Positions 29,576 through 56,138 of a DNA stretch of 64,000 nt are shown here, piece by piece; the stretch's first letter is position 1, and each line of letters opens with the position of its first letter. The notes under the pieces are model-generated. The model worked only from the letters and a program-made list of their open reading frames with translations, searched no databases and was not told the origin of the DNA. The stretch comes from Rhodospirillaceae bacterium (GTDB lineage: Bacteria > Pseudomonadota > Alphaproteobacteria > GCA-2731375). The stretch is from the NCBI GenBank assembly GCA_018660265.1, contig JABJKS010000089.1, forward strand, positions 62,001 to 126,000, written 5' to 3'. The translations under genes and the position numbers were made by a program.

Positions 29576-30664
29576 ATCCAAATCTTCAACCGGCACAAAT
29601 GCGTCCGCCAAACCGAACGCTGCCGGGCCAAACGCCGCCAGGGCCGCCTCGGTGCGCATGATGGCTGGGGCGGAAACAGCCATGACCGTGACCCGTTGGC
29701 CATAGCGTAACCGCTCTGTCGTGATCGGCTGGGCCATCTCCGTATCCAGAATGCAGACTAAATCCGGCACCATGGCACGCAAAACATCGCCCTGACGGGC
29801 CACCAGAAACTCGTTCTGAAACTCGATGGTCAGAGGCAAACCAGCAGCCTCCTCATCAACAATGCTGACCTTGCCAATGGCCCAGCCCTGCCGCGTCTCC
29901 CGCGTCAGATCCATAACCTTACCCTGATACAGAACCTTTGCATGGCCATAGTGGGTCCCAGCCAACATCTCCACCAAGGCCGCGAAAGGCTCCCGGTTTT
30001 CAGCCCGGGACTCCCGTAGATTGGCCCCAATCGCCTGGCATAGGGACGTCGTGCCGGGAATTGCGACCCGTCGGGCCGTCCTCCCGTCCATGGGATAGGA
30101 TGCCATGGCTGCGCGTGCGCCCATGCGAATGGCGATGCCCCGGGCGATATATTCCGCCCTGGTGTCATCGTCGATATCCAAAATCGTGGTATCGCCGTGT
30201 TCCGAGGCGAGAGCAAATGGTGCGGAGGAAACCCCATAAACCGAGAATGTGACCATCTGCAATTCGGGAAAGGCCCGCCCCATACCGTCCGCATCAATCA
30301 CCGGCTTGCCCAGCATGGCAGCAATATAGATCGGCATCATTGAGTTGGAGCCCCCCGCTTCGAAGGCCAGCAGTGCATCGATGGACCGGCCCAGATGCTT
30401 TTCCAGGGCCAGGACGGCGGCGGCGGGTTGATCGGCCCCCATGATCTTTTCGATGGCCACCGTAGGCGCGCCCAGATTACCGCAGGAGACGACCAGGGCG
30501 TCGTCTTCCAGCTCATCCAGGGACAGCAGGGTGACGGGGCCGTTTTCTATCATGGCCCGGCGGGTCATCAAAGTGGCGATATAGGGATCACCACCGCCGC
30601 CCGTACCCAGGAAGGTGGCGCCTAAGGCAATATCGTCCAGATCTTCAAGACCGATTTTGATCAT
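29573..30664 (-). CDS. DUF917 family protein (hydantoinase-associated)
   Basis: 363 residues. DDIALGATFLGTGGGGDPYIATLM at the start and DADGMGRAFPELQMVTFSV in the middle are DUF917 marks. DUF917 proteins usually pair with hydantoinase/oxoprolinase-type ATP-dependent amidohydrolases, as here: the start overlaps the preceding hydantoinase gene by 4 bp. The partner complex probably opens a cyclic amide or related ring. The stop codon is contributed by repeat copy B, so the original C-terminus may have been slightly altered. Confidence 0.88.
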   Translation of the reverse strand: MIKIGLEDLDDIALGATFLGTGGGGDPYIATLMTRRAMIENGPVTLLSLDELEDDALVVSCGNLGAPTVAIEKIMGADQPAAAVLALEKHLGRSIDALLAFEAGGSNSMMPIYIAAMLGKPVIDADGMGRAFPELQMVTFSVYGVSSAPFALASEHGDTTILDIDDDTRAEYIARGIAIRMGARAAMASYPMDGRTARRVAIPGTTSLCQAIGANLRESRAENREPFAALVEMLAGTHYGHAKVLYQGKVMDLTRETRQGWAIGKVSIVDEEAAGLPLTIEFQNEFLVARQGDVLRAMVPDLVCILDTEMAQPITTERLRYGQRVTVMAVSAPAIMRTEAALAAFGPAAFGLADAFVPVEDLD

Positions 30665-32235
30665 TGCCCACCCCCGTCCAGATCACCGACAACCTTGACC
30701 CGCAGGCGGGTGGCATTGCCCGGCAGATAGCTAAGGGGTATTTCATCCATCTCCACAACACGTACCGTCGCGGCATCGGCACCGGCTTCAACGGCCTGCG
30801 CCCTGGCCTCCTCCCTGGCTGCCGCCACCGCCTGGTCCCGGCTGATGCCGTCCAGGGAAAAAATCCGGTCGCATTCCCCGCCCACCATGGCGATGGAGGC
30901 ACCAATGGCATTGGCCACCTGACCGTGGCCGGGCCGGACAATTTCACCACCCGCAATATGGCTGCCGCCCAGAACCGGCGCGCCGCCACCGACCAGGATC
31001 ACCGGCAGGCTGGCAGCACTTGGGCGGACCCGCTCCAACGCCCGGGCGACCATTTCGACCGCCTGGTTCAGTGCCGCGTCTACATTTTCAAGACCGGCAA
31101 CTTCTTCGCCATCACCCAAATTCATCTGTCCACCGGCGACGGCAATATCGCTCATGGTCAAGGTATCGCCGCCAAAGACCAGAGCACGCTGTTGCAGTTC
31201 AAAGCCGACCGAGTCTGGCCCGATCCGGGCACCGCCATCGCGCACCAGACTGCCGCCGCCGAGGCCAAGGGCGAGGAGGTCCGGCATGCGGAAATTTGTC
31301 CGTACCCCGCCGACTTCCACGGTCATGGCGGCTTCCCGTGGAAAGCCATCCAGTAACAAGCCGATGTCCGTCGTGGTGCCGCCGACATCCACGACCAGGG
31401 CATCATTCAAGCCGGACAACACCGCCGCCCCGCGCATGGAATTGGTCGGGCCAGAGGCAAAGGTTAGGACCGGGTATCGGGCCGCATGCGCCGCCGTCAT
31501 CAAGGTGCCGTCGTTCTGGCTGATATACAGTGGTGCCGCGAGGCCAAGATCATCAATGGCCTGGCTGAAAGCGCCCAGGACCACGCCCGCCAGACCGGAC
31601 AGGGCGGCATTCAGAATGGCGGCGTTTTCCCGCTCCAACAAGCCAATGCGGCCAATGCGGTGGGACAGGGTGATTGCGGCAGCGGGCAATTCCCGACGCA
31701 ATATGGCCTCGGCCCGATGTTCCATCTCCGCATCCAGGGGTGAAAACACAGAGGTGATCGCGACGGCATCAATGCCCTGATCGCGAATTTTCCTGGCAGC
31801 CGCTGACAGTTCGGCCTCGTCCAGGGGAGAGATTTCCCGACCGTCAAACTCCAATCCGCCGTGAAGAAAATAGTAATCCCCGCCTACCACGGCGCGGAGG
31901 TCTTCCGGCCAATCCGTCATCGGCGGCACCGCCGTGGTGGCGGGTGCAGCCAGACGCAGAACGGCAACCCGGTTCAGACGCCGGCGTTCAATGACCGCAT
32001 TGGTGAATTGCGTGGTGCCCAGCATGACCGCGAAGATATCACCCGCCACGGCCCCGCCCTGTTCCAACACCGCGCCGGCGGCGGCAACGATGGCATCCGT
32101 GATGCGCGCGCCGGTCGATACCTTGTGCCAGGCGACAACCCGATCGCCGTCCATCAAAACCGCATCCGTATTGGTGCCGCCAACATCGATGCCCAAGCGC
32201 AGCCTGGGATGATGCGACGGCGGCGTCTTATTCAT
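30661..32235 (-). CDS. hydantoinase/oxoprolinase family protein (HyuA-like)
   Basis: 524 residues with the ASKHA-type nucleotide site of HyuA/OplA proteins: [17 protein letters not shown] near 14-30, [13 protein letters not shown] around 90-102 and [16 protein letters not shown] near 285-300. The family hydrolyses hydantoins, 5-oxoproline or carboxylates acetone-type substrates with ATP. The substrate here is unknown. It overlaps uvrA upstream (4 bp) and the DUF917 gene downstream (4 bp). The overlap with uvrA places a catabolic pair behind an SOS-controlled gene. Confidence 0.9.
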
Positions 32236-43309: not shown

Positions 43310-44731
43310 ATGCAAGCCGAATTGGAAGCCGTCCTGAAGCGGGAAATTCCCAGGTGTCAGGCACTGATATCAGCTGAACGCCTCTCAGGCGGGGCCAGTC
43401 AGGAAACCTATCGTTTAACCATTCGGGAGTCGGATGGCGGCGATAGGCTGTTGGCCCTGCGTAGAGCGCCTGGTGGACACGATGAGGGCCGGGTCTCCTA
43501 CTATCCGGGCCTGGCAGCGGAAGCATTGTTGATGCAGTCCGCCAAAGCCGCAGGCGTGCCTGAGCCTGAGGTTTTTTATGTTCTGAAAGACCGCGACGGC
43601 CTGGGCAACGGTTTCATCATGTCCTGGTTAGAGGGGGAGGCGCTGGGCGCGCGGATCGTCCGCTCCCCCGACTTGGCGGAGATACGGCCAAAACTGGCCT
43701 ACGAATGCGGCCAGATCCTGGCCCGTATTCATGCCATTGACCTAAAGGCCACCGGCCTTGATCAGTGCCTGTCCCGGTTAAGCCCGGAAGAATACGTGCA
43801 CAATACCTGGGATCGCTACAAGGCATTTAACACGCCGCAACCCATGATCGATTATACGGGACGGTGGTTGTTGGATCATTTGCCCGATGTGGGTGCGGAA
43901 GCGTTGGTGCACAACGATTTTCGCAACGGCAATTTAATGATTTCCCCAAAAGGCGTGGTCGCCGTGTTGGATTGGGAGGTGGCCCATATTGGCGATCCGA
44001 TGCGGGATCTGGGCTGGATTTGCACCAATTCCTGGCGCTTTGGCCGTACCGACCTAGCCGTGGGCGGGTTCGGTACTTACGATGATTTGTTTGCCGGCTA
44101 TCAATCCGTGTCGGGACAGGTAGTAGATCCCCAGCGGGTGAAATTTTGGGAAGTGTTCGGGTCTTTCTGGTGGGCCATTGGTTGTCTAGGCATGGCGGAC
44201 CATTACCGCACGGGTCCCGATGCCTCGGTCGAGCGTCCGGCCATTGGTCGGCGCAGTTCCGAATGTCAAGTGGATTGCGTCAATCTGCTGATCCCAGGGC
44301 CGGTCGAATTGGTCTCGGAGCCTGACAGTACGAACGACGAGATGCCCCGGAACGATGAACTGTTGATCAGCGTGCGTAATTTTCTGCATGGCGACGTGAT
44401 GGCAGAGACAGAAGGGCGGACAAATTTCATGGCCCGGGTGGCCGGTAATTCCCTGGATATCGTCCTGCGCGATCAAGCCCTGGGGCCGGCGCATCGCCAC
44501 CTGGAACGGCAACGCCTGAACGCATTGTTCGTCGCAGACGACAGCCTGGAAAATTTACGCTGGCGCCTGGTCAATGGACTACGCCTGGGCGAAATGGCCC
44601 TTGATCATCCCGGCCTGGCACATCATCTACGCCAGACCGTGGTCAACCAGATCGCCATAGATCAACCAAAATACTCCGGCTTCAAGACGGCATTGGGTCA
44701 CAATACCTCCGAACGCTCTAGGTTCCGGTAA
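43310..44731 (+). CDS. APH-like phosphotransferase family protein with a C-terminal extra domain
   Basis: 473 residues. The aminoglycoside phosphotransferase/choline-kinase fold covers about 1-330: the catalytic loop is ALVHNDFRNGNLMI (around 200-210), and AVLDWEVAHIGDPMRDLGW has the Mg-binding Asp. The C-terminal ~120 residues are a helical domain (NFLHGDVM to HHLRQTVVNQIA) seen after phosphotransferases linked to acyl-CoA dehydrogenases (DUF6285-like). It probably phosphorylates a hydroxyacyl or related small metabolite rather than an antibiotic. It overlaps the crotonase gene by 14 bp tail to tail. Confidence 0.85.
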   Translation: MQAELEAVLKREIPRCQALISAERLSGGASQETYRLTIRESDGGDRLLALRRAPGGHDEGRVSYYPGLAAEALLMQSAKAAGVPEPEVFYVLKDRDGLGNGFIMSWLEGEALGARIVRSPDLAEIRPKLAYECGQILARIHAIDLKATGLDQCLSRLSPEEYVHNTWDRYKAFNTPQPMIDYTGRWLLDHLPDVGAEALVHNDFRNGNLMISPKGVVAVLDWEVAHIGDPMRDLGWICTNSWRFGRTDLAVGGFGTYDDLFAGYQSVSGQVVDPQRVKFWEVFGSFWWAIGCLGMADHYRTGPDASVERPAIGRRSSECQVDCVNLLIPGPVELVSEPDSTNDEMPRNDELLISVRNFLHGDVMAETEGRTNFMARVAGNSLDIVLRDQALGPAHRHLERQRLNALFVADDSLENLRWRLVNGLRLGEMALDHPGLAHHLRQTVVNQIAIDQPKYSGFKTALGHNTSERSRFR

Positions 44732-45518
44732 ACTTCGCGGGACGTTTTTCGACGAAGGCCGCCAGGCCCTCCTTGGCGTCGTTGGTCTTGCCCAGTTCCA
44801 CATTCACCGTCTTAAAATCCGCCACCGCAGTATCAAAGCCCTTTTCGATATACTTGCGGGAATTGGCAATGGTCGCCTTCACCGCCAAGGGTGCCTGGGC
44901 GCAGATTTTTTCCGCCAGTTCAATCGCCCGGTCCAGCTGCTGGCCCGTGGGCACCACTTCCTGGATATAGTTGAAGCGCAGCGCCGTTGCCGCATCGAAC
45001 TCATCGTCCGTCAACAAATACCGCATGGCATTGCCGTAACCGGCGCGCTGGACCATACGGATGGTCGCACCCCCCGTGGCCATCAGGTTGCGCTGTACTT
45101 CCAGTTGAGAAAAACGGCAGTCCTCAGCCGCGATAACGATATCGCAGGCCAGCATCAGCTCGACCCCAATGGTGTAAGTGATACCCTGAACAGCGGCGAC
45201 AATGGGCTTGCTACGGTGCGGGCCGGTAAGACCGAAACAATCGATATTGCCCTCGCCATAGATGGAGCCACCCTTGGCCCGGTGCGGTGTCATCGCCGGC
45301 ATATCCAGGCCCGCTGTGGTATGAGGCCCAACCGCATAAAGAACGCCGCATAGCAGGTCATCGTCATTTTCAAGCAAGGTATAGGCATCGCCCAGTTCCT
45401 GGCCCATTTTCGGTGTGTAGCCGTTGAATTTGTGGGGCCGGTCAACACCCATCAACAGCAACGGGCCACGGCGCTCTACATTGACGCGGCCATCCGGGTT
45501 TGAGGGATCATCTGCCAT
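44718..45518 (-). CDS. enoyl-CoA hydratase/isomerase (crotonase) family protein
   Basis: 266 residues with the crotonase fold: RPHKFNGYTPKMGQEL, TTAGLDM, ITYTIGVELMLACDIVIA. Glutamates corresponding to both hydratase acid/base residues are present, in IGVELM and FSQLEV. The oxyanion region MATGGATIRM is less typical. It is the last gene of a long leftward run that starts near 54132. Its substrate would be an acyl-CoA from that pathway. It starts 20 bp after the Abhydrolase_10-type gene. Confidence 0.87.
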   Translation of the reverse strand: MADDPSNPDGRVNVERRGPLLLMGVDRPHKFNGYTPKMGQELGDAYTLLENDDDLLCGVLYAVGPHTTAGLDMPAMTPHRAKGGSIYGEGNIDCFGLTGPHRSKPIVAAVQGITYTIGVELMLACDIVIAAEDCRFSQLEVQRNLMATGGATIRMVQRAGYGNAMRYLLTDDEFDAATALRFNYIQEVVPTGQQLDRAIELAEKICAQAPLAVKATIANSRKYIEKGFDTAVADFKTVNVELGKTNDAKEGLAAFVEKRPAKFTGT

Positions 45519-45538
45519 TATTGTGTACTCCTAAAATT

Positions 45539-47488
45539 CTAGTTTGCCATGACGGCGTCATAACGCGCTGCAGCGATACCCACGCACAGGGGGATATCTT
45601 CATTCAAAAGATACCGTAACGAGACCAGGGCAGCAGCAGCGGCCTCGACCTGCCGCAAATAGTCATCCCGGTCGCCATAGCGTTCGCCGATCGAGGGGCG
45701 GGGATCGCCCGTGGCATCGCGCCCGGCCTTATCCTTGGCAAACGGTATTGTGGAACCAATATATTCCAGCAGCTGCCCCGCCCCGCCCGTATCACCATGG
45801 CGAGGGTTGAAACCTGTATGGGAGGCGACGGGCACGGCCACATCAGGCATCGGTATACCGGCGGCCTCACAGCCGTTCTCGTTCACGGTCGAAACCCAAT
45901 CAGGATAGGGTGCTGCGCCCAAAGTCGCCGGGAACAGCCCGATGCCCCGGTCCGCATCTGGTCCGAGGTCCATTGGATAAATCCAGGTCATGGCCTCCCC
46001 ATCCGGCAGGGCCAATCCTGGCGTACCGGACAATGCGGCCATCACGTCCGCGCGTGAGCCGCGACGATCTTTGTTGGGATATGAACTACCGGGCGGGGCG
46101 ACATCGTCCCTTACCCAGATCAGCAGGTTCGCCAGGGCTGCGCGGTACAGGGGGCGATAGTCGACTATATTCATATAATTCTGGCCATGACTGCCAAACA
46201 TGGTGCGCCGGGCCAGTACGGCGACACCTGGCCCGTGCTGGGTTGAGGCGAATAGATAGCGGCGCACATTGTCGGGCAGCTCCGCATCCCCACCTGTATC
46301 CAGATCGCAATGGCTTAACCCCGCATCACCGCGCCAATATTCCGAAGAGGTGTCGGTATAGATGATCTTAGGCATGCCGCCCTTGGCGATCTGACGATCA
46401 AACAGACCCTCGATCTTCTCACTCAAAGGATCGGTCTGGGGCAGATCGGCGAACGGAAACTGATGGCCAAACGACGGCGTCGGCTGGACCGAAGGCTGGG
46501 CATAACGGTGGTTGAACTCGCCGCGCCGGCCACCGGCAATGTGCGCCAACATGCCGTCAAAGGCAGGCCGTCCCGCCTCATCCAGGTTCAGGCCGAAATA
46601 GAGATAGGTGCGTAGAAAGCGCCCGCACTGGGACTGCCCCTCCCCCACCGCATGATCGATTTCGCCGGCCGTGGGCGCGTCGGCGTCATAGCGCAGGTAG
46701 GAGGCCAGATCCCGGGTCGCCAACATGCCGGTACCAACCACGGGGCAATCGCGCGGCGTATATAGCAGGTCATAGATGCGCCCGGTCGCAAATCCGCCGT
46801 CCAGCCAGACATGGCCTGCCGCATCAAAGTGCCATGTGGCCCTGTCAATAACCTCCGCCGCACCATATACACCGTCGCGCACCATCAGGGCGGCATCAGG
46901 CTCGTTGTTATCAGCGGCAATAATCAGTTGGTGGCGTCCCAGATCGCCCACATGCTGATCCGTCAATGGCAGGCTGTCGCAGGCCGCATTTACTTGCAGG
47001 CGCAACTGCATTTGGCTCGCGGGTCGGCGTGCCTCTATTGGCACCTGTGGCGGCATCAGGCCGATGCGCATACGTTCGGGCGTACGGGGCACATCCCACT
47101 GCCAGCCGGCCCAGGCCACAGTCCAGCCATGTTCGAAAAGGAAACCGTCACCGGCAGCGATATCGGCGGAATTATCCGTGGTCATGGGGGATTGATTGAA
47201 CCGCGCCAGCACCCGCTTGCCCCGGTTCGGCACCTGCATCAACAAGGCCCTGTTACCCTGCCTCACCAGCAAAGGCCGCAGGATGGTCACATCGCCGCTG
47301 TAGTGAACCAGGCCGTCATTGTCGCGGGGTGCAAGATCCAGATCCACCACACCGGCGTTGGCCGCATGCAACGGATCTGCCGTGTAGTGAGCGATAGCCT
47401 CTATCCGCTCATACGGGCCGACAGCGCCAAACGATTGGCCATTTTCATAGGGTTCACGGGACAAAATCTCAAGACGGGACAACGGCAT
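45539..47488 (-). CDS. Abhydrolase_10-type alpha/beta hydrolase
   Basis: 649 residues. VGPYERIEAIAHYTADP at the start is the usual N-terminus of the family annotated as alpha/beta hydrolase domain (Abhydrolase_10). The nucleophile is Ser286 in GEGQSQCGRFLRT. A catalytic Asp and His would lie in the C-terminal half, near DTSSEYWRGD and NHRY or ASTQHG. No signal peptide is visible. The enzymes are probable esterases of large substrates. It follows the paralogue gene by 5 bp and precedes the crotonase by 20 bp, so it belongs to the same transcription unit. Confidence 0.82.
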   Translation of the reverse strand: MPLSRLEILSREPYENGQSFGAVGPYERIEAIAHYTADPLHAANAGVVDLDLAPRDNDGLVHYSGDVTILRPLLVRQGNRALLMQVPNRGKRVLARFNQSPMTTDNSADIAAGDGFLFEHGWTVAWAGWQWDVPRTPERMRIGLMPPQVPIEARRPASQMQLRLQVNAACDSLPLTDQHVGDLGRHQLIIAADNNEPDAALMVRDGVYGAAEVIDRATWHFDAAGHVWLDGGFATGRIYDLLYTPRDCPVVGTGMLATRDLASYLRYDADAPTAGEIDHAVGEGQSQCGRFLRTYLYFGLNLDEAGRPAFDGMLAHIAGGRRGEFNHRYAQPSVQPTPSFGHQFPFADLPQTDPLSEKIEGLFDRQIAKGGMPKIIYTDTSSEYWRGDAGLSHCDLDTGGDAELPDNVRRYLFASTQHGPGVAVLARRTMFGSHGQNYMNIVDYRPLYRAALANLLIWVRDDVAPPGSSYPNKDRRGSRADVMAALSGTPGLALPDGEAMTWIYPMDLGPDADRGIGLFPATLGAAPYPDWVSTVNENGCEAAGIPMPDVAVPVASHTGFNPRHGDTGGAGQLLEYIGSTIPFAKDKAGRDATGDPRPSIGERYGDRDDYLRQVEAAAAALVSLRYLLNEDIPLCVGIAAARYDAVMAN

Positions 47489-47493
47489 GCAAA

Positions 47494-48471
47494 CTAACTC
47501 CGCAGATTACGCACAGGCCTGGTCACAGATTGGGAACCACCGGCCCAAATTGGCAGGTGGGTCATTTTAACGCCTGGCCCCCCGGTGACAATAGGGTGCA
47601 CATCCTCTGCATCCCGCACCAGATCGGGAAAGCCCGACAAATAGGTCTGAATACGCCCCAGGTCCCAGCCGTTCTTGGCGATTTGATGTGCCAATTCGGG
47701 CGGCAATAGAAAGAACTGCTCCCCCAACGCCCGCAGACGCCCGGCAGAGGCCACCGCGCGGGTCGCGGCCATGGTAGTCGCCATGGGTTCCAGGATGGCC
47801 TCAGGCGTATCGCCGCCGCCCGCAGGCAATACCTCGACAGTGCCCGAGACGCCCAGCACGGTGACAGCGCTTGCCCCAGCATCCAGGCCACGCCGCATCG
47901 GCAGGGTCGGGAGAGTTCCATCCCCGCCCTCGGGAAAACAGAAACCGTATTTGCCCGGCTGACCCATTGTTGCCATGTCGCCAATACCCGCCCGCGCACC
48001 GGCGATATTCAGCATGACCAGGGCCATGGCCCGACCCAAGGTGGCGTTGGCCCGGTTGCCTGGACCCAAAAGATTGGTGCCGGCGTTCATGCCCAGACTT
48101 TCCACGACGGGGCCGTGCACGATGGTGACCACGGCCGGGGTGCCTGTGGTCGTCAGGATACCAAGCAGATTAAAGTCGGGCTCCAGACAAGCCTCCGCCG
48201 CGGTCAATACTATGGGCAGGGCAGCCGGCGCACAGCCCGCCAGCACACAATTGTAAGCAACGGCGGCTGTGGTCAGGTCCCCGAACAGGGGCACCATCTG
48301 GCCATATGATTTATTCGGCGCGGCCACCCCATCCAGCATGGCTGCGAGGCGTGCCTTGGTCGGTGACACCAAGGGCAGACCATCGCCAAGGTTTTGCTCT
48401 GCAAGAATGGCCTGAGCCTCTTCCCAAGGGACAGCCTCGTCAAAGATCGGTAAGTCGGCCAAGGCTTCCAT
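47494..48471 (-). CDS. uncharacterised family protein, paralogue of the 48747-49787 product (copy 2)
   Basis: 325 residues. It shares GDGLPLVSPT, an A(V/N)AxAGC/AGA core, LDP-like EPDFNLLGILTTTGTPA, GxxRANATxGRAxxLxxxNxxGA and GKYGFCFPE with the neighbouring paralogue, in the same order. The motifs GNRANATLGRAMAL and MGQPGKYGFCF define the family here, but I cannot name its function. The only Shine-Dalgarno-like AGGA upstream is in the terminal repeat of the 266-bp element, 7 bases before the ATG. It may still depend on the upstream operon for its promoter. Confidence 0.8.
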   Translation of the reverse strand: MEALADLPIFDEAVPWEEAQAILAEQNLGDGLPLVSPTKARLAAMLDGVAAPNKSYGQMVPLFGDLTTAAVAYNCVLAGCAPAALPIVLTAAEACLEPDFNLLGILTTTGTPAVVTIVHGPVVESLGMNAGTNLLGPGNRANATLGRAMALVMLNIAGARAGIGDMATMGQPGKYGFCFPEGGDGTLPTLPMRRGLDAGASAVTVLGVSGTVEVLPAGGGDTPEAILEPMATTMAATRAVASAGRLRALGEQFFLLPPELAHQIAKNGWDLGRIQTYLSGFPDLVRDAEDVHPIVTGGPGVKMTHLPIWAGGSQSVTRPVRNLRS

Positions 48472-48473
48472 CT

Positions 48474-48739
48474 AGTGTCCTGGTTCAGAAATACGTCATG
48501 TTTAGGATCGGTTCTCCGGACCTCCGGGTAGGAGGCATTCCGCCGGCGATGCGGCCCATCGTCAAGGGATGCCGACGCCATCCGGAGCTCCGGAAAACCG
48601 ACCAATTTGGCGGTCTAAGAGGCCCCTCGGACGTCGTTGTGCAGCCCTCATGATGCAACAACATCACGACGGGCCACACGCCTAGCCGAGGGGCCTCTTA
48701 GACCGTCCTAAATACGGCGTATTTCTGAACCAGGACACT
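48474..48739. mobile_element. 266-bp MITE-like element with perfect 22-bp terminal inverted repeats
   Basis: Left end AGTGTCCTGGTTCAGAAATACG (48474-48495), right end its exact reverse complement (48718-48739). The similarity continues imperfectly inward (ATGTTTAGGA against TATTTAGGAC). A second, internal pair of 20-bp inverted repeats reads GGTCTAAGAGGCCCCTCGG and its reverse complement (48612-48630, 48686-48704). No open frame of size is inside, so it is a non-autonomous element or the ends of a lost insertion sequence. No clear target duplication is visible. Confidence 0.85.
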
Positions 48740-48746
48740 TGTCTGG

Positions 48747-49787
48747 TCAAACGTGCGCCACCCGCACAGAGCAGGCGGCAGTGAAACCAAAGGGCGGGAT
48801 ATAGGCGGAATGCTTACCGGGCCCACCGGCGACCAGAATATGAAAATCCTCCGGCGTCTTGACCATAGGGTAGTGATCATCCACGAGCGGGCGATCCATT
48901 TCGTCATAGCTGACCTGGTTTTCTTCCGAGACTTTGGAGATATGCAGGGCGGAGCGCGTGAATAAATCCGCCTGGATGTCCGCAATGCTCCAGCCATCCC
49001 GGTGCAGGGTCTGGGCATGTTCGGGGCCCAGGATCAGGAATATCGGCGCATTGCAATAGATGGCATTGGCACCAGGTTGGCTGATGGTACCGGCAACAGT
49101 GGTCAGAATGCCAACCCCGGTGGTGGAGGCATGATCGTTGATGTTATGGGGTGCCTCGGCGGGAATGGCCGTCACCACACTGTCGTCTGCGGCAAAGCCC
49201 CGGCGCACATGGAACGGCTCCCACGGGCTTTCCTCCTCATTCTCGCCGAAGCAAAAAGCGTATTTGGCAGGTGTCCCCTGGGTGGAGCGGTCCATGATGC
49301 CGGGCTTGGCCCCGCCCACATTCATCAGGATCAATTGCAAGGCCCGGCCAATCGTGGCATTGGCCTGACGGCCCTGACCAAAACAGTTGGAGGAGCAGTT
49401 GACGTTAAGCTGATTGCGGATGGGTCCGTTGAGCAGGATCATCGGTGCACAGGAATGCGTGGTGGCCAGACTGCCGTGCAGATTATACTCCGGGTCCAGC
49501 ACAGCCCGGGCCGCAGCCAACACGGCGGGGAAATATTCCGGCCGGGCACCGGCCATGACGGCGTTGGCCGCCATGGCCTGCATCGTCGGGATCACCCTTC
49601 GTGGCGACATCGATGGCAGGGGTTCGTTATCGCCATGGCAGGTGGCAACAAACCGCTCAACCAGCTCTTCCGTGGGCATAACCAGGGGAAAGCCATCGCC
49701 CCATCCCTGATCGAACGCATACTCATTCCATTGCGCTTGATCCATATCATCAAGATCAAGGGTTTCCGTCTCTGCAGCAGTTTCCAT
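48747..49787 (-). CDS. uncharacterised family protein, paralogue of the 47494-48471 product (copy 1)
   Basis: 346 residues from the ATG at 49787. An earlier ATG at 49832 falls within repeat copy C. Shared motifs: FDQGWGDGFPLVMPTEE, AANAVMAGARPEYFPAVLAAA, LDPEYNLHGSLATTHSCAPM, GQGRQANATIGRALQLILM and GTPAKYAFCFGENEEESPWEP. The same string of motifs occurs in families that surround UGSC selenoprotein genes, and here the next gene upstream is one. The function is unknown. The conserved Cys and acidic residues could form an active site, but I have no direct evidence for that. Confidence 0.8.
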   Translation of the reverse strand: METAAETETLDLDDMDQAQWNEYAFDQGWGDGFPLVMPTEELVERFVATCHGDNEPLPSMSPRRVIPTMQAMAANAVMAGARPEYFPAVLAAARAVLDPEYNLHGSLATTHSCAPMILLNGPIRNQLNVNCSSNCFGQGRQANATIGRALQLILMNVGGAKPGIMDRSTQGTPAKYAFCFGENEEESPWEPFHVRRGFAADDSVVTAIPAEAPHNINDHASTTGVGILTTVAGTISQPGANAIYCNAPIFLILGPEHAQTLHRDGWSIADIQADLFTRSALHISKVSEENQVSYDEMDRPLVDDHYPMVKTPEDFHILVAGGPGKHSAYIPPFGFTAACSVRVAHV

Positions 49788-49818
49788 AGATTTAGTCTTT
49801 ACACTCCATGAAGGATCC

Positions 49819-49926
49819 AGAGCATGTTTCATTTAGACATGCCCACGACCTTGGGACTCTTAAGAACCGAGCGATTGAACCAATCACTTAGGTCGCGCAA
49901 GCAATTCCAAATAATTGAAAATTGCC
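49819..49926 (+). repeat. dispersed palindromic repeat, diverged copy C
   Basis: Shares GACTCTTAAGAACCGAGC and CCAATCACTTAG with copies A and B, and has a hairpin-like start (GCATGT at 49822-49827, ACATGC at 49837-49842). The right hairpin is degraded. It fills the gap between the selenoprotein stop and the next gene of the operon. Confidence 0.6.
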
Positions 49927-50445
49927 CTACAGCTCGATAGCAGCCTTTAGCCCGTTGCTTGCAGTATCAATGCGCTCTGCCAGCTCCTCAGCATTCAGGC
50001 CGCCAATGGGATGCTTCACGACAATGACGTGAGGGTCCATTTTGCGCGCCTTGGCCTGGGCCTGTACCAAAGGCAGGAAAGTATCGGTGGTCAGGATAAA
50101 ATTGGTAACGCCGCGTTTTTCAAGTTCGATGCTGTCATGGAAACTCCACGACGAACATGCCCCTCAATCCGCTATAGCGAGGATCGCGGCCCTGTACTTG
50201 CCGGCCAATTCGTCATACATCCCATCAGCCGCCGGCTGGGCCGGGCTGTCCTTCAGGGTATAATCAATATTGTCCGTATTGCGATAGGCGCTCATCTTCG
50301 AACGCATGCCTTCGAGCAATTCTTTCGCATTAGGCTTGGAATTAGAAAACAGAATGATAGGATCCTTGCTCCAATCGACGGAGTTGGCGGCAACCTGTTC
50401 GTTGCTTGGGGCTTCTTCGCCAAAGGATGGATTGACAATTCGCAT
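49927..50445 (-). CDS. UGSC-type selenoprotein with in-frame UGA (selenocysteine at residue 94)
   Basis: 172 residues if TGA at 50164-50166 is read as selenocysteine. The ATG at 50445 has AAGGGAG ahead. The start MRIVNPSFGEEA is followed by a helix-rich first half. At the TGA the protein reads U-G-A-C-S-S-W, a UGSC-like redox motif, then HDSIELEKRGVTNFILTTD, FLPLVQAQAKARKMDP and VIVVKHPIGGLNAEELAERI, ending at TAG (49927-49929). This is how UGSC family proteins continue after the redox site. Reading the TGA as stop would remove that conserved half. It is probably a thioredoxin-like-redox or selenium-dependent enzyme of unknown substrate, within the catabolic run. Confidence 0.85.
50134..50152 (-). 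ncRNA. candidate bacterial SECIS hairpin in the selenoprotein mRNA
   Basis: On the minus strand, 8 bp can pair (GTCGTGGA with TCCATGAC, one G-U wobble) around the loop GTT. The first loop base is 20 nt after the UGA, which matches the spacing of the E. coli fdhF element, whose loop also has G and U. This is inside coding sequence. Confidence 0.6.
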
Positions 50446-50515
50446 GTTGGATCTCCCTTCAAGAACTAGGTTAAGCCAGGGCAACCCAAAATAGCAAGGC
50501 CGGCACGATCACGAT

Positions 50516-52801
50516 TTAGATGCTTTTGGGCGGCGGCGGGAAGGGCGCGGGATCCAAAAAGCGCGTCAGTACATTGCCTGTGATCTGTGCCACATTGTTT
50601 TCATAGCCATTGTGAGCCAGGCTGGAAATCCAGGCGATGGAGCCCGTAGCGAAAACCCCGCCGCCGTGTGGGCATTCAAAAAACACCATATCCGCGCGCA
50701 CATTGGGGTCATTGAAATGCGGCATGGTGGAAAGAAAATCTTCTTTAGTACGCAGCATGTCATCGCCAAAATCATCCGCCCGCGCCAAAACCAATGCATG
50801 CGCCGGGGTGCCGTCGCGGGTATCCCAACGGTCAATCTCTTCGCCAGCGGCACCATTGCCGATGGAGCCGAAATTGCCGATAGGCCCGGCCCCAATACCT
50901 GCCAAGGCAAAGGCGGCACGGGGGTCATCGGCACCGGCCTGACGCTCGTAGGGGCTGCTGTATTCGAACCCCTGGGCGGCAAATCCAATGCCCACCAACT
51001 GGTTCGGTGGCCGACCGTTGCGCCGCCACAAACCACCATATTCGCCATTGAAGGATTGGTAATATTCCCCCACCGGCGACATCCAGGCCCGGGTTCCGTC
51101 CTCGGCCCGGCGCACCTCGATCACGCCCGGCTTGTCATCGTGAAATGCAATCCGCCAGTAAAATCCATTGCCGCCCAGGTACATCAGGCGGCCGCCCTGG
51201 CTTAGATAGCGTTCGATACCATCCAGCATAGCCGTGGAATGATATTCCGGATGGCTGCCGGTCATGACGCAACGATAGGGCTGCAGTAACCCAGCGCCCT
51301 CCGTGTGCAGTTCCTCATCCGTGATGATATCGACCGGTTGGTCAATATGATCCAGCCAGGCCAGAATGTTCAGATCCGCCGGCAGACCCCAGGGCCGGTT
51401 ATCGCCCGGCTTCATATTCATCACCGGGCGCAGGCGGGAAGAATAGTGAATACCGCTGCGGTCATCGTGATTGTCGTAAAGGGAGCCGCCGACCTCCTCA
51501 TGCCGGGCCAGAAATGCGTCGTTGACCCATTCCGGATGGCCGGCACCAAATATCAGATTAGGCTGCAAACGTTGCCGGGTATTGGCATAGGCCATATAGG
51601 ATGCGGTCGGCACCAACCAGGCTACATCCGCTCTGGCCTCGCCCTTTGGCGGCAGCACAAAGAAGGGAATGCGGTCGACATCATCGCCATGATGCAAACG
51701 GGCGGCATAGACACCACTGGGCAGATCATCCGGCACGGTATAGGTAAAATCCGTCTCCCAGCCTGCATCATACAGATCATCGTGATGAAAATGGATGGCG
51801 CCATATTGCTCCGGCGCGTGACGCCAATTATGTTCGCTGCCATCCCAATTATGGCCGGTGACCCCGCGTGTGGGCAGATTAATCACCTCGCCGTGCAGGC
51901 CATGGCGGGACAGGTCCGTAATCCGGTCCGTGGAAATATCAGCGGCAAAATCCCAACAGCCTAAGATGTCGTTCGTTAAGGTTTCGGCGATGCCGGGCCC
52001 GGAAGCCGCTGCCATTTCAGCATCGGTCAGGGCACGGTTCGCAAGGCGCGGGCGATCAATCTTGCCGTTGAAATGCGCTGTGGCCCTTTCACCGCCCCCC
52101 GCTGCGAATTGAAATGGTGCCGCCGCTGCGCCTAACCCTAGACCCGATACCAGGGTTTCCGATCTTTCAACGGGGTCTGATATGACCTGATCGCCAGGGC
52201 CGGTCGCCAACGGCCGTTGCACCAACCGCGCCTGGCCGCTTGCACTATCATAACTGGCCGCGACGAATGCCCATTGTCCCCGGCGTAGAGGCACATTGGT
52301 GCTGAGCATTAGCTGCCGCCCCTGATCTTCACCGACCCTTAGGGCCAAGGCACCGGTTTCGTCCAGCAGAAGGGCAAACCCCGCGCCTGGATCATCCCAA
52401 CCGCGCCCCATGATGACCTGCCGCCGCGCACCTGGCAGTGTCGGACAAATCATAGCCTGTAGGGTAAAGCTGTGTAGCTCTGCCAAGGCCACCTGAGCAT
52501 CGACGCTGCCATGGGAACCCCGATGAATGGCCTGAAACCGACCTTCATAAGACCGCCCTGCATAAGATTGTGCAAAGGGGGCTTTAACCACCGCCTCCAA
52601 CACCCCGACGCCGTCTGGGCTGCTGTCCCCACCCGTGACCCGAACAAGGTCTGCTTCGTAGGGGCCGTCTTCATAACTACAGACTTTGAAATCCAGGCGC
52701 TGGCCGGGCCTTGCCGATATGGGATTGCAGTAACCGGTTATGGTTTTACGGCGCAGTTGGCCCTCGTCGTTAGATTTGGGGTCAGATTTGGGGGCGGACA
52801 T
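50516..52801 (-). CDS. N,N-dimethylformamidase large (beta) subunit-like protein
   Basis: 761 residues. N-terminal ITGYCNPISARPGQRLDFKV and a LamG-like stretch (about 100-260) are followed by the dimethylformamidase beta-subunit domain: VPDDLPSGVYAARLHHGDD, DIITDEELHTEGAG, VMTGSHPEYHSTAMLDGIE and GRLMYLGGNGFYW. DmfA-type enzymes hydrolyse small amides to formate/amine. The small alpha subunit gene is not adjacent, so it may act alone or on a different amide. There is a 70-bp gap to the selenoprotein downstream and 95 bp to the amidohydrolase upstream, all same-strand. Confidence 0.87.
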   Translation of the reverse strand: MSAPKSDPKSNDEGQLRRKTITGYCNPISARPGQRLDFKVCSYEDGPYEADLVRVTGGDSSPDGVGVLEAVVKAPFAQSYAGRSYEGRFQAIHRGSHGSVDAQVALAELHSFTLQAMICPTLPGARRQVIMGRGWDDPGAGFALLLDETGALALRVGEDQGRQLMLSTNVPLRRGQWAFVAASYDSASGQARLVQRPLATGPGDQVISDPVERSETLVSGLGLGAAAAPFQFAAGGGERATAHFNGKIDRPRLANRALTDAEMAAASGPGIAETLTNDILGCWDFAADISTDRITDLSRHGLHGEVINLPTRGVTGHNWDGSEHNWRHAPEQYGAIHFHHDDLYDAGWETDFTYTVPDDLPSGVYAARLHHGDDVDRIPFFVLPPKGEARADVAWLVPTASYMAYANTRQRLQPNLIFGAGHPEWVNDAFLARHEEVGGSLYDNHDDRSGIHYSSRLRPVMNMKPGDNRPWGLPADLNILAWLDHIDQPVDIITDEELHTEGAGLLQPYRCVMTGSHPEYHSTAMLDGIERYLSQGGRLMYLGGNGFYWRIAFHDDKPGVIEVRRAEDGTRAWMSPVGEYYQSFNGEYGGLWRRNGRPPNQLVGIGFAAQGFEYSSPYERQAGADDPRAAFALAGIGAGPIGNFGSIGNGAAGEEIDRWDTRDGTPAHALVLARADDFGDDMLRTKEDFLSTMPHFNDPNVRADMVFFECPHGGGVFATGSIAWISSLAHNGYENNVAQITGNVLTRFLDPAPFPPPPKSI

Positions 52802-52896
52802 AAGGTGGCATTTCCTCGGAATTTATGAAGGATATTTTGCCCCGACTATAGCGGACAAACGCTACCCCGCTCCGAAATTTCGAACAATTTAAATCC

Positions 52897-54132
52897 TTAC
52901 GCCATATCATTTTTCAAGATCACGCCGCCTTTCAAAATCAAGGACAAAGCTTCGCCTTGGCCGTCCAGGCAGGAAATGTCCTCCAGGGGATTGCCGCGCA
53001 CGGCGATCAAATCGGCATAGGCACCAGATGCAACGACGCCCAGCTCACCCTCCATATTTAGCAATTTGGCATTTTGAGAGGTGGCGGAGCGTAATACATC
53101 CACCTCCGGCATGACCTGGGCGCGGATGACGAACTCGTTCGATTGATCTTTGTGCATACCGCCCAGCAAATCCGTGCCAAGGCCGATATTGACCCCCATT
53201 TCGTGGGCCAAGGCCAAAGCTTCCAGCCCCTGGATCCTGACATCATCCACCTTGGCCACGCTGACGGGCGGCAGGCCATAGTCGGCCCCATATTTATGCA
53301 GTGAGTTGTAGGTCACCAGGGTCGGCACCAGCCAGGCATCCTTTTCCCGCATCAACTCCAAGCTGGCACGATCGATCAGATTGCCATGTTCGATGGAGCG
53401 CACGCCCAGGCGTACACAGCGGGAAATAGCTTCCGGGGTGTAGGCATGCGCCATGACATAAGTACGCCAGGATGTCGCCTCCCACACGGCAGCTGCAATC
53501 TCCTCCTCGGAATATTGCAAATTCCAGATGGGATCGGTGGGGGAGGCCACCCCGCCCGAAGCCATGATCTTGATCTGGGTGGCACCCCGGCGCAATTCCG
53601 TACGCGCGGCCTTTCGCACTTCGTCGACGCCATCAGCAATGGCGGTAAATTGCGCGCTGGGCAGGCAGCATTGGCAGCCTTCCCAATCATAGACCCGGGG
53701 ACGGCTGTCACCATGGCCGCCTGTCTGGCTAAGCACCCGCCCGGAATAAAACAGTCTGGGCCCGGCGATCAGGCCTTCCTCAATCGCCATGGCCATGCCC
53801 CAATCAGCGCCGCCCGCATCCCGCACTGCGGTAAAGCCCCGCTGCAACATCCCCTCGGCGATGCGCCCACCCCGCATGGCGGTCAACGAAGCGGGATCAT
53901 TGCCGATACTGCCCAAATCAGCGGTGGTCGCGATCAAATGCACATGGGCATCGATCAACCCCGGCATCAACACCTGGCCGCCCAGGTCAATCACCTGATC
54001 ACCCTTGGGTACGACACCCCCCTGGCCGACCTCCTTGATGCGATCATCCTCAATCACAACATAGGTATCGTCCACAAGGTCGGGGGATTGCCCATCGAAA
54101 AGCAAGGCGTTGTGCAGCACCGTCAGGGTCAT
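52897..54132 (-). CDS. metal-dependent amidohydrolase (imidazolonepropionase-like)
   Basis: 411 residues from the ATG at 54132, with GGAG 7 bases ahead. An ATG at 54144 gives four more residues. Metal-binding motifs: GLIDAHVHL (HxH), the lysine region TQIKIMASGG, MAHAY, SIEHGN and GLGTDLLGG with the final Asp. The family includes prolidase-type, imidazolonepropionase and cyclic-amide hydrolases. It leads the leftward catabolic run and is divergent from the cupin gene, with 121 bp between them. Hydrolysis of a C-N or lactone/lactam bond is the likely role. Confidence 0.88.
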   Translation of the reverse strand: MTLTVLHNALLFDGQSPDLVDDTYVVIEDDRIKEVGQGGVVPKGDQVIDLGGQVLMPGLIDAHVHLIATTADLGSIGNDPASLTAMRGGRIAEGMLQRGFTAVRDAGGADWGMAMAIEEGLIAGPRLFYSGRVLSQTGGHGDSRPRVYDWEGCQCCLPSAQFTAIADGVDEVRKAARTELRRGATQIKIMASGGVASPTDPIWNLQYSEEEIAAAVWEATSWRTYVMAHAYTPEAISRCVRLGVRSIEHGNLIDRASLELMREKDAWLVPTLVTYNSLHKYGADYGLPPVSVAKVDDVRIQGLEALALAHEMGVNIGLGTDLLGGMHKDQSNEFVIRAQVMPEVDVLRSATSQNAKLLNMEGELGVVASGAYADLIAVRGNPLEDISCLDGQGEALSLILKGGVILKNDMA

Positions 54133-54253
54133 TGTACTCTCCATATAATATTGCGGTTAGCTTTCGCGACAATTTCGAAACGGTCAAGCGGGAAAAAAAC
54201 TGGCATGGCGGGAAACCCCTGATTACAGTCAGGGTCAAGTTTTGGAGCCTTTC

Positions 54254-54559
54254 ATGAGCGATCTTTTACAGCGCGACAAATTCAGCACCCCGGTGGAGCA
54301 AAACCTGGTCACGGCGGATTGGCGCGCACGCGGCTATTCCTGCGGCCTGTTCGTTGACCCGCCCGGCCAGCAATGGCTGGATTTTACCCACAGCACTAAT
54401 GAACTGGTCACCGTCGTCGAGGGTCGCCTGGACATGACCGTGGGTGATGTGCGGATTGAAATGGGCCCGGGTGATGAGGTTTTTATTCCAGCCAATGCCA
54501 CGCACTCGGTCTGCAATATTCACGACGGCATATCGCGTTGGCTGTACGGCTACGATTGA
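54254..54559 (+). CDS. small cupin-domain protein
   Basis: 101 residues from the ATG at 54254 (GGAG just upstream). One cupin barrel: FTHSTNELVTVVEGRLDMTVG and GPGDEVFIPANATHSVCNI, with His/Glu residues for metal binding. It could be a small isomerase, dioxygenase or sensor. It is followed by the SnoaL-like gene (11 bp gap) and the FMN oxidase, all same direction, opposite the amidohydrolase operon. Confidence 0.86.
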   Translation: MSDLLQRDKFSTPVEQNLVTADWRARGYSCGLFVDPPGQQWLDFTHSTNELVTVVEGRLDMTVGDVRIEMGPGDEVFIPANATHSVCNIHDGISRWLYGYD

Positions 54560-54570
54560 GGGATCAGCAG

Positions 54571-54981
54571 ATGACAATGAACAAATTGGACCGTGAGACA
54601 TTGGAGAGATTGACCCAAGACTTCACGGAAACCTTCAACGGCACCGACATTGACGCCATGATGAGCTATTTCGCCGCTGACGGTAGTCTCTATGACCAAC
54701 ATGACGGTGCCCAGGCACAAGGCGACGCGGCGATCCGGGCCGCCTTTCAACCACAGTTCGATGGTGAATTCGGCACGATGCAATTTGTCATGGAAGATTT
54801 GTTCGTAGACCCTGAACAGGGCAAGACCATGGTCAGCTGGCTTTGCAGTTTCGATACCAAGCGTGGACGCACGGGCTGGCGCGGCCTGGATATCCTGCAT
54901 TTCAATGAACAGGGCAAAATCATCATTAAGCGCACCTATGCCAAGGCCAAGGTCCTGCAACTGGTACCTGCCCCAGGATAG
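54571..54981 (+). CDS. SnoaL-like / NTF2-fold protein
   Basis: 136 residues from the ATG at 54571. NTF2-like fold: FTETFNGTDIDAMMSYFAADGSLYD followed by GDAAIRAAFQPQF and DILHFNEQGKIIIKRTYAKA. Members are isomerases, cyclases, dehydratases or scaffold proteins acting on small metabolites. The DNA gap of 11 bp to the cupin gene and 59 bp to the FMN-dependent enzyme gene suggests one operon. The substrate is unknown. Confidence 0.82.
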   Translation: MTMNKLDRETLERLTQDFTETFNGTDIDAMMSYFAADGSLYDQHDGAQAQGDAAIRAAFQPQFDGEFGTMQFVMEDLFVDPEQGKTMVSWLCSFDTKRGRTGWRGLDILHFNEQGKIIIKRTYAKAKVLQLVPAPG

Positions 54982-55040
54982 GGCTGAACTGATCTGACCA
55001 GATCTAAATAAACCAGAATAGATTTGTGGAGAGTTAAAAC

Positions 55041-56138
55041 GTGTTTCGAGATGATCGCAGTAATCCAGCCTTCCAACGGCGCTTTCAGGCCCTGCATGAA
55101 ATTGCGGCTGAGGCCCACGCCCGCCTGCCCCGCAATATTTGGGACTATATGCGCGGCGCGACGGAGACCGAGACAACCGCCAAGCGTAACCGTCTGGCCC
55201 TGGATACCCTGGCCCTGCGCGCCCGCGTACTGCGGGATGTACAGGACATCGATCTATCCAGCACATTCCTGGGCGCTGATCTGGATCTGCCCCTGACGTT
55301 TGCCCCCATTGGATCGTTGGAATCGTTTGATCCCGAAGGTGGTGCGGCCGCCGCACGGGCCGCTGCGCGCCACGGCATGATGACCACGTTAAGTTCCGTC
55401 TCCGCCCCGGGGTTGGAGGCGACGGCAGCGGCGGCGGAAGGCCCCAAAATCTTTCAGCTATATGTGCGCGGCGATACGGCCTGGGTTGATGATCATGTCC
55501 ACCGGGCCGTTGCCGCAGGTTACACCGCGTTTTGCCTGACTGTTGACGTGGCCGTCTACAGCCGGCGGGAGCGGGATATCGTCAACCGCTTCGTCAAGCC
55601 CTGGCGCCGGGACGCTGAGGGTCAGGATTTCCAAGCCGCCCTGAATTGGAAAGACGTCGAACGCTTCAAGGCAACCCACAACATACCTTTGTTGCTCAAA
55701 GGCATCATGACGGCGGAGGATGCGGCGATAGCTTGCGACCATGGCGTCGATGGCGTCTGGGTTTCCAATCATGGCGGTAGGCAATTGGACCAGGCCCAGG
55801 GTGCCATGGCCGTCCTGCCAGAGATCGTGGATATTGTCGCGGGCCGGGCGGCGATCATTGTCGATGGCGGCTTTTTGCGTGGCACGGATATCATCAAGGC
55901 CATGGCCCTGGGTGCCGATTTGGTGGCGTTGGGGCGGTTGACCGCAATGGGACTGGGCGCAGGCGGCGAGGAAGGCTTGGTCCGGGCCATGGATTTACTG
56001 GCCGAGGAGATGCAGATCGCCATGGGCCTGTTGGGGCAGACCCGTCTGGCAGATTTATCCCCTGACGATCTGACCACGGCACCCGCTGTTGATGCCCCCG
56101 ATGTCCTGAGCGCGTTTCCCCATCTCAACGTGGAATAA
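55041..56138 (+). CDS. FMN-dependent alpha-hydroxy-acid oxidase/dehydrogenase
   Basis: 365 residues from the GTG at 55041. TIM-barrel family of lactate/glycolate oxidase: LPRNIWDYMRGATE at the start, FAPIGSLESFDPEGG, the phosphate-binding VWVSNHGGRQLD (catalytic His, substrate Arg) and VDGGFLRGTDIIKAMALGADLVALGR at the FMN phosphate site. It oxidises a 2-hydroxy acid to the 2-oxo acid. The first FMN motif differs from lactate oxidase, so the exact acid is open. It closes the plus-strand part of the catabolic region. Confidence 0.9.
   Translation: MFRDDRSNPAFQRRFQALHEIAAEAHARLPRNIWDYMRGATETETTAKRNRLALDTLALRARVLRDVQDIDLSSTFLGADLDLPLTFAPIGSLESFDPEGGAAAARAAARHGMMTTLSSVSAPGLEATAAAAEGPKIFQLYVRGDTAWVDDHVHRAVAAGYTAFCLTVDVAVYSRRERDIVNRFVKPWRRDAEGQDFQAALNWKDVERFKATHNIPLLLKGIMTAEDAAIACDHGVDGVWVSNHGGRQLDQAQGAMAVLPEIVDIVAGRAAIIVDGGFLRGTDIIKAMALGADLVALGRLTAMGLGAGGEEGLVRAMDLLAEEMQIAMGLLGQTRLADLSPDDLTTAPAVDAPDVLSAFPHLNVE

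Follow-up and report, generated by a model that had tools for sequence, protein, structure and literature searches.

The question raised by this locus is what a selenoprotein does amid a small set of catabolic genes, and with which of its neighbours it works. The locus lies in a 64,000-nt stretch of DNA (the window) from a Rhodospirillaceae bacterium (GCA_018660265.1, contig JABJKS010000089.1, positions 62,001-126,000, forward strand). On the minus strand it holds genes for a protein of the crotonase/enoyl-CoA hydratase family (44718..45518; ECH_1 PF00378, 1.5e-33; 330 bits against the NF005126 cut-off of 261), a large esterase-like alpha/beta hydrolase (45539..47488; PF20091, 6.1e-35; no relative at E<=0.01 in a search of solved structures), two paralogues, the selenoprotein, a large subunit resembling that of dimethylformamidase (DMFase) and a prolidase-like amidohydrolase. 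A divergent operon on the plus strand encodes a small cupin (54242..54559; Cupin_2 PF07883, 3.2e-13), a SnoaL-like protein (54538..54981; SnoaL_2 PF12680, 2.3e-13) and an FMN-dependent alpha-hydroxy-acid oxidase/dehydrogenase (55041..56138; FMN_dh PF01070, 5e-105), which also matches lactate and glycolate oxidase structures. All named genes were identified by profile or solved-structure matches, and the gene set listed in an earlier note, which had read it as one pathway for the stepwise breakdown of an amide- or ester-containing compound to a hydroxy acid and acyl-CoA, is present in full. The flanking gene, encoding an APH-type phosphotransferase with DUF6285 (43310..44731, plus strand; PF01636, 3.9e-32; PF19802, 4.3e-26), is convergent with the island, and this synteny is kept in three relatives (L179, L183 and L187). 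A scan of the window with Rfam at gathering thresholds gave no match. The host is a marine-type bacterium, and the island is small.

That the island has a gene for a predicted selenoprotein, as the earlier note had it, was borne out. The gene (49929..50445, minus strand) is broken up in a mechanical ORF list by an in-frame TGA (50164-50166, minus strand); when this codon is read as Sec, the product of about 171 residues, with Sec94 within the motif UGAC, belongs to the UGSC family PF24696 (1.8e-31; 110 bits against a gathering cut-off of 25) and scores below the equivalog cut-off of NCBIfam NF041046 (111.6 versus 125 bits). In relatives the codon at the Sec position is TGA, TAG or one for Cys. 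Directly after the TGA there is a SECIS-like hairpin (50121..50163, minus strand; MFE -15.8 kcal/mol), with a z of -2.4 against mononucleotide shuffles, and the same hairpin recurs in relatives. The host genome encodes SelB (430.9 bits) and tRNA-Sec (66.1 bits) and harbors five other TGA-containing UGSC genes, so that each of its six UGSC matches holds one TGA. The gene carries a Sec coding signature and encodes a predicted selenoprotein.

Next to it lie the two paralogues that the earlier note had left without a recognized family. They are copy 1 (48747..49832, minus strand) and copy 2 (47494..48471, minus strand; included in partner alignments A2 and A4), 32% identical to each other, and it holds that neither has a Pfam or NCBIfam match in profile searches; they are no side feature, however, as both belong to a family that is the near-obligate partner of UGSC. 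Among 289 alphaproteobacterial genomes, UGSC was found in 28 and the partner in the same 28, and 70 of the 76 UGSC genes have a same-strand partner no more than 2 kb away. No neighbour was found for six of these 76 UGSC rows and four of the 91 partner rows, some perhaps because seven partner candidates were scored per genome. All six UGSC genes of the host genome have an adjacent partner. In a set of 86 loci, 80 of which were fetched by partner similarity, UGSC lies within 2.6 kb of 112 of the 116 partner domains (counting matches that cover at least 200 profile positions), and 20 of the 116 are fused to UGSC in one reading frame. Loci with a natural fusion or with a Cys form of UGSC occur in Cupriavidus pauculus (L111), Natrialba asiatica (L083) and Mycobacterium gordonae (L116), of which cultured strains exist. 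At one same-genus locus (L188), UGSC occurs without a partner in the 4.3 kb downstream. A fusion of UGSC to 'Unknown_1' was reported in PMC2398784, and 'Unknown_1' may be the present partner family; a literature search revealed no work on this family, nor did we find it described in print as a near-obligate companion of UGSC. Between the two partner genes sits a MITE-like inverted-repeat element (48474..48739, no strand; 59-nt arms, 75% complementary) that has further copies elsewhere in the genome; in the closest relative (L186) the gap there is 39 bp, and the element has no part in island function.

The partner family resembles nothing that could be named with assurance. When 72 partner sequences (alignment A4, chosen from 106 eligible plus copy 2 of the window) were compared with Pfam, there were isolated weak matches at most, and no pyruvoyl-subunit family (GrdE/PrdA) was among them. 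The predicted model of copy 1 (pLDDT 95.5) had no match to known structures at E<=0.001 in Foldseek, the weak matches being to cyclic amide hydrolases (E 0.03-0.1, TM about 0.2). A known fold was rejected: the best Z, 6.0, covers a sub-domain only, and hence amounts to 'no clear match' and is no proof of a new fold. Many residues are invariant in the alignment of the family. Cys69, conserved in 69 of 72 aligned members, was considered as an essential catalytic residue and rejected, because Ala takes its place in copy 1 of the window species and in the closest relative. Of the other alignments, A3 was built from 66 of the 91 UGSC rows eligible for it and A5 from 19 of 29 listed proteins.

Two lines of evidence bear on the chemistry of the pair, the first being its linkage to thioredoxin-type redox genes. 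Of 20 partner frames selected for their length, 18 have an N-terminal CxxC domain; these domains are related to those of L019 and L020 and weakly match AhpC-TSA and thioredoxin. Since our greedy ORF caller was unreliable in GC-rich loci, so that neighbour-cluster counts in the 86 loci are lower bounds, TrxB-like genes were recounted with tblastn: a TrxB-like reductase lies within about 410 bp of the UGSC-partner pair at 13 of the 86 loci, all 13 sequences contain CxxC, and the 13 loci include 11 of the 12 two-partner-type loci outside the genus of the window. Six of eight further two-partner-type regions, one of which repeats L043, also have such a gene. The second line is a distant profile similarity to glycine and D-proline reductase. 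Using hhalign, UGSC aligned with alphaproteobacterial PF07355 proteins at 88.8% and a score of 47.2, over 68 columns only and Sec on Sec, against 21.8 for the best of 200 column shuffles and 12.5 for the reversed control. UGSC seems to be distantly related to the Sec domain of GrdB/PrdB. Recognized membership in PF07355 was rejected: when 66 UGSC members were searched at E<=10, with HMMER filtering that removes most matches above 0.1, this family was not among the best 25 of 29 families. The partner was likewise rejected as a recognizable GrdB/PrdB-type domain (0.4% against PF07355 proteins), and the island annotation contains nothing recognizable as a pyruvoyl subunit, GrdA or GrdC.

We consider the chances about even that UGSC and its partner make up one enzyme, a selenoenzyme reductase supplied with electrons by thiols, which might break a C-N, C-O or C-S bond. 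UGSC would bear the reactive selenol, on Sec94, with the resolving cysteine three residues on (U-G-A-C), and the partner, here as two paralogues, would probably be the substrate-binding part of what we infer to be one physical complex. The selenol would attack or reduce a bond of the substrate, leaving a selenenylsulfide (U-xx-C), which would be re-reduced by thioredoxin-type thiols and ultimately by NAD(P)H, in a manner resembling the presumed working of protein B of glycine/D-proline reductase. Since it would be placed among hydrolases and a crotonase, such a reductase would most likely serve in the aerobic breakdown of a carboxylic compound, where its step would be the reductive cleavage of a C-N, C-O or C-S bond. 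A broader reading, to which we give clearly less than an even chance as a whole, is that UGSC and its partner represent a new class of aerobic, Sec-dependent two-component reductase, distantly akin to the glycine/proline reductase of clostridia, with thioredoxin-type donors, present as a module in many catabolic gene sets of Proteobacteria, Actinobacteria, Chloroflexi and others, and with the partner as a new substrate-choosing fold. If true, a selenoprotein that ranks among the commonest uncharacterised ones of aquatic settings would be breaking C-N, C-O or C-S bonds of dissolved organic matter by reduction. With its near-obligate partner and probable electron donors named, the orphan UGSC becomes an enzyme open to expression and assay.

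Whether the remaining island genes belong to the same pathway is a separate matter. The earlier note's selenoprotein-linked catabolic island was sought in other genomes of the host genus and found there, and its recurrence is therefore more than chance: at one locus (L182, also L044) all island genes follow one another as in the window, with identities of 70-88%, and part of this order is seen in other members of the genus. The genus core is UGSC-partner1-partner2-hydrolase-crotonase, both the PF20091 hydrolase and the crotonase (86-98% identical) being found at eight same-genus loci; L180, fetched as window-type, turned out to be of a different type and is not counted for the genus, and L190-L192 are not window-type. 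The island is modular, however, and is not kept as a block. Genes for the DMFase-like enzyme, amidohydrolase, cupin, SnoaL-like protein and oxidase are absent in several members of the genus: at L185 there is no DMFase-like gene and the amidohydrolase gene is reduced to a remnant, the cupin-SnoaL-oxidase cassette does not occur in the stretch seen at L181, L187 and L189, and L184 has only UGSC and the partners. Outside the genus, the loci seen retain only UGSC and the two paralogues, and none of the remaining island genes, distant crotonases excepted, was found at the other 78 of 80 loci. It could thus be, with a probability appreciable but short of one half, that the DMFase-like enzyme, the amidohydrolase and the cupin-SnoaL-oxidase cassette form a pathway separate from UGSC and its partners; the independent variation just described favors this, whereas the full order at L182, its partial retention elsewhere in the genus, and the placing of most genes on one strand with short gaps speak against it. 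Such a separation can coexist with the proposed reductase. In any case, the amidases and the oxidase cassette are present in some relatives and absent in others, and so give little guidance on the substrate. Of the earlier proposal of one stepwise pathway for an amide or ester the catabolic character stands, its amide part is weakly supported, and a hydroxy acid and acyl-CoA may or may not be its end products. Inferring the substrate from neighbours was also tried on the 86 loci and rejected; the commonest clusters, judged by eye, are solute-binding proteins, CoA-transferases, crotonases and short-chain dehydrogenases, which do not point to any one theme.

The pair might also not be a reductase at all. 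In an isomerisation, transfer or lyase reaction the selenol could serve as the nucleophile or be the leaving group, and the thiol systems would then do no more than keep it reduced. Many loci, including that of the window, have no electron-transfer gene beside the pair, the window island has no Trx or TrxB gene, and the neighbours of the pair include hydrolases, CoA-transferases, crotonases and dehydrogenases, all of which would suit such a role, but the repeated links to CxxC domains and TrxB-like genes seem to go beyond the needs of maintenance, and we regard this explanation as unlikely. Less likely still is that the pair acts in thiol repair or as a selenol peroxidase, guarding the pathway from the peroxide that flavin oxidases, among them the FMN hydroxy-acid oxidase, would make, with the partner as a scaffold. 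Sec, UxxC, the CxxC domains and the TrxB-like neighbours would be equally at home in a peroxidase and in a reductase, and there are the oxidase in the island and the weak AhpC-TSA matches of some N-terminal domains, but several same-genus loci keep UGSC without the oxidase, UGSC has a distant profile similarity to GrdB/PrdB-type domains, the invariant residues of the partner are as expected for binding or catalysis, and the model of UGSC does not suggest a thioredoxin fold. The UGSC model (pLDDT 91.9) is alternating alpha/beta and Rossmann-like, as are its top structural matches, and none of the 50 matches listed is named thioredoxin; PMC2398784 had proposed a thioredoxin-like fold for the family.

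Among known systems, the DMFase-like protein (50516..52801, minus strand; DMFA2_C PF20254, 3.3e-95), an iron amidohydrolase of the large subunit type that also resembles N-acyl-amino-acid acylases, aligns nearly full length with N,N-dimethylformamidase (6lvb, 1.6e-140) and with the N-acetyl-(R)-beta-phenylalanine acylase 8huy (1.4e-136). It keeps the 2-Tyr-1-Glu iron site, Y399, Y440 and E521, together with H519 (hand count on the alignment). The small subunit, which is needed for activity in the Paracoccus enzyme (PMC7686228), has no gene adjoining that of the large subunit, where the flanking gaps of 70 and 95 bp leave no room for one. The earlier note was right about this absence but took it as a mark of non-standard chemistry, for which it is weak evidence and not clearly odd, because the solved acylase scores almost as high as DMFase (460 versus 473 bits) and the iron ligands are kept. 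The prolidase-like amidohydrolase (52897..54144, minus strand; Amidohydro_1 PF01979, 7.6e-46) aligns over residues 4-413 with the amidohydrolase/prolidase structures 3feq and 3n2c (4.6e-132, 444 bits), falls short of the Xaa-Pro dipeptidase equivalog cut-off NF051886 (273.4 versus 500 bits), and is a remnant or absent in some relatives.

The UGSC family itself is already known, common and uncharacterised, and PMC13188914 places it among the selenoproteins identified by bioinformatics that are largely uncharacterised. By its Pfam match the window protein belongs to this family, with a UGxC motif at the TGA, but its motif is UGAC rather than UGSC; new relative to the known family are the partner family, the TrxB link, the Trx-like fusions and the GrdB-like profile match. 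With GrdB/PrdB (PF07355), UGSC shares the UxxC Sec motif, and the two domains align at Sec. Thioredoxin is the reductant of glycine reductase (PMC13188914), and TrxB-like genes often lie beside UGSC. The systems differ in that UGSC goes undetected by PF07355 and its partner is unrelated by profile. Furthermore, the hosts of UGSC presumably include many aerobic lineages, unlike those of the GrdB/PrdB system. If UGSC and its partner are indeed a reductase of the glycine reductase type, such chemistry would extend beyond the anaerobes.

The genome comprises 5.55 Mb in 121 contigs, with the window at positions 62001-126000 of contig C109, and every gene that the earlier note had named is present there. 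Transcribed in this order on the minus strand are genes for a prolidase-like amidohydrolase (52897-54144), a homologue of the N,N-dimethylformamidase (DMFase) large subunit (50516-52801), the UGSC selenoprotein (49929-50445), two copies of an unnamed family, here termed the partner (copy 1, 48747-49832; copy 2, 47494-48471), a PF20091 hydrolase (45539-47488) and, last, a crotonase (44718-45518); the plus-strand set (54242-56138) encodes a cupin, a SnoaL-like protein and an FMN hydroxy-acid oxidase. A MITE-like element with terminal inverted repeats occupies 48474-48739, between the two partner genes. Elsewhere the genome contains three almost complete copies of it (94-96%) along with several that are partial or more divergent, and since L186, the closest relative, lacks the element at this position, its insertion is probably recent. 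Elsewhere in the window, two overlapping genes at 29573-32235 resemble by eye a DUF917/hydantoinase-oxoprolinase pair, possibly a further cyclic-amide function, and small genes at 18345-18677 and 19444-19815 look, again by eye, like toxin-antitoxin components.

By sequence criteria the UGSC gene is a genuine selenoprotein gene, as had been proposed: once the TGA is translated as Sec, the product of 49929-50445 fits PF24696 at 1.8e-31, and both SelB and tRNA-Sec are present in the genome. UGSC occurs in all 15 genomes examined from the order, and a single TGA is found in each of the six UGSC genes of this genome and in 75 of 76 matches among 289 alphaproteobacterial genomes (the class sample). 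A hairpin 3′ of the TGA in this gene and its relatives stands out modestly when compared with mononucleotide shuffles (z about -2 to -3.4), and coding conservation explains part of this signal. PF07355, the family of protein B of glycine and D-proline reductase (GrdB/PrdB), was matched in 31 of the 289 genomes, mostly by TGA-containing proteins; six matches fall in this genome (contigs C84, C51, C31, C7 and C4), and the one that was read (L157) contains an in-frame TGA. Six UGSC genes and six PF07355 matches make a large predicted selenoproteome. The Sec position is TAG in Blastococcus (L051) and Geodermatophilus (L052), which is already known from the UAG-coded UGSC-motif selenoproteins of Geodermatophilaceae mentioned in the portion of PMC5330540 consulted; in the haloarchaeon Natrialba asiatica (L083), a UGSC-partner pair has Cys in place of Sec.

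Searches of Pfam and NCBIfam gave no family for either island paralogue, in keeping with their earlier description as an unknown family, and 72 aligned relatives gave no Pfam family beyond isolated weak matches. The partner structure model (pLDDT 95.5) has no clear match among PDB structures. UGSC and partner are almost certainly paired. This genome has eight partner copies, at least one at each of the six UGSC loci. When the best 80 of at least 574 relatives in named genomes were taken together with these six loci, 112 of 116 partner domains lay no more than 2.6 kb from a UGSC on their own strand, and 20 of the 116 shared one frame with it; the four that had no such neighbour lie in L054, L059, L089 and L114. 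As the 80 loci had been fetched via the partner, the class sample served as a test not started from the partner alone: UGSC was found in 28 genomes and the partner in the identical 28 (hypergeometric value 1.5e-39, ignoring kinship among genomes), with a partner within 2 kb of 70 of 76 UGSC genes and no UGSC near 4 of 91 partner rows. Cross-detection does not account for this, because the two profiles are dissimilar (0.3% probability). A Cys kept in 69 of 72 aligned members is replaced by Ala in partner copy 1, a change that, among genus members with the motif seen, occurs elsewhere only in L186. The contig carries another UGSC locus about 27 kb past the island selenoprotein (C109:139455-141095; L021 13455-15095), where a Sec-containing UGSC and its partner are fused into one protein; the genes 3′ of it encode a PhnD-like binding protein and, named by eye, a GMC-type oxidoreductase.

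The island is modular. Other genomes of the family supplied ten window-type loci, nine of them in the same genus, and UGSC, both partners, hydrolase and crotonase occur together in eight of the ten. Two of these loci, L187 and L182, are not independent of L041 and L044, whose contigs have equal lengths. L184, from another genus, has UGSC and partners only; in L188 (G008:C263), unrelated sequence adjoins UGSC after 10225 and partner genes are missing downstream, perhaps through an assembly break. Conservation of the island elsewhere holds for this core, whereas the DMFase-like gene (6/10), the cupin-SnoaL-oxidase cassette (4/10) and the amidohydrolase (3/10, one a remnant in L185) are variably present, with the contigs of L183 and L186 ending too early to tell. 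The other 78 of the best 80 (of at least 574) partner loci yielded none of the accessory genes apart from distant crotonases. Both DMFase and N-acetyl-(R)-beta-phenylalanine acylase, an enzyme that is active without a small subunit, can be aligned with the DMFase-like protein. By hand count this protein keeps Y399, Y440, E521 and H519 of Paracoccus DMFase, whose large subunit is inactive by itself according to the part of PMC7686228 consulted. The closest solved structure to the island amidohydrolase is an amidohydrolase/prolidase. As for the amide- or ester-containing compound put forward previously, these homologies hint at N-acyl or prolyl amides, but both genes vary among relatives, and enzymes that come and go are little guide to the UGSC substrate.

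Thiol-redox links surround the pair. L019 and L020 carry an N-terminal CxxC domain on the partner, and a related domain was found in 18 of 20 partner frames from other genomes, selected for length. Matches of these domains to Pfam and PDB were weak (AhpC-TSA and thioredoxin, best 4e-5 and 0.022), so the label thioredoxin-like leans also on the CxxC and the V-P-T stretch after it, presumably a thioredoxin motif. At 13 of 86 loci a TrxB-like flavoprotein gene is found no further than about 410 bp from UGSC and partner, with CxxC in all 13 copies. It is present in 11 of the 12 two-partner (window-type) loci outside the window's genus (L043, L045-L053 and L058; none in L042) and in six of eight further two-partner regions, of which L204, its contig being as long as that of L043, is probably the same record; within the window's own genus, the stretches read have none at this locus.

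The UGSC family is known and uncharacterised in the portions of the literature consulted (including PMC2398784 and PMC5330540), and the open-licence texts searched, as far as available, reported neither the partner family nor its links to TrxB and GrdB, with the possible exception of the 'Unknown_1' fusion of PMC2398784. The UGSC model (pLDDT 91.9) has an alternating alpha/beta fold with Rossmann-like top structural matches, and differs from the Trx-like fold suggested in the consulted part of PMC2398784. An alignment of PF07355 proteins compared with 66 UGSC proteins gave 88.8% probability and a score of 47.2, placing Sec over Sec and the +3 Cys over Cys, against a maximum of 21.8 in 200 column shuffles and 12.5 on reversal; this is good evidence, at the level of profiles, that UGSC may be distantly related, over 68 columns, to the PF07355 proteins of the class sample. 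UGSC and partner would form one enzyme, with selenol chemistry in UGSC and a resolving Cys; that it is fed by thiols is probable, and thioredoxin-type donors would re-reduce UGSC after turnover. If UGSC works like protein B of glycine and proline reductase, reductive cleavage would be its likeliest reaction, and we tentatively propose a GrdB-like reduction by UGSC and its partner.
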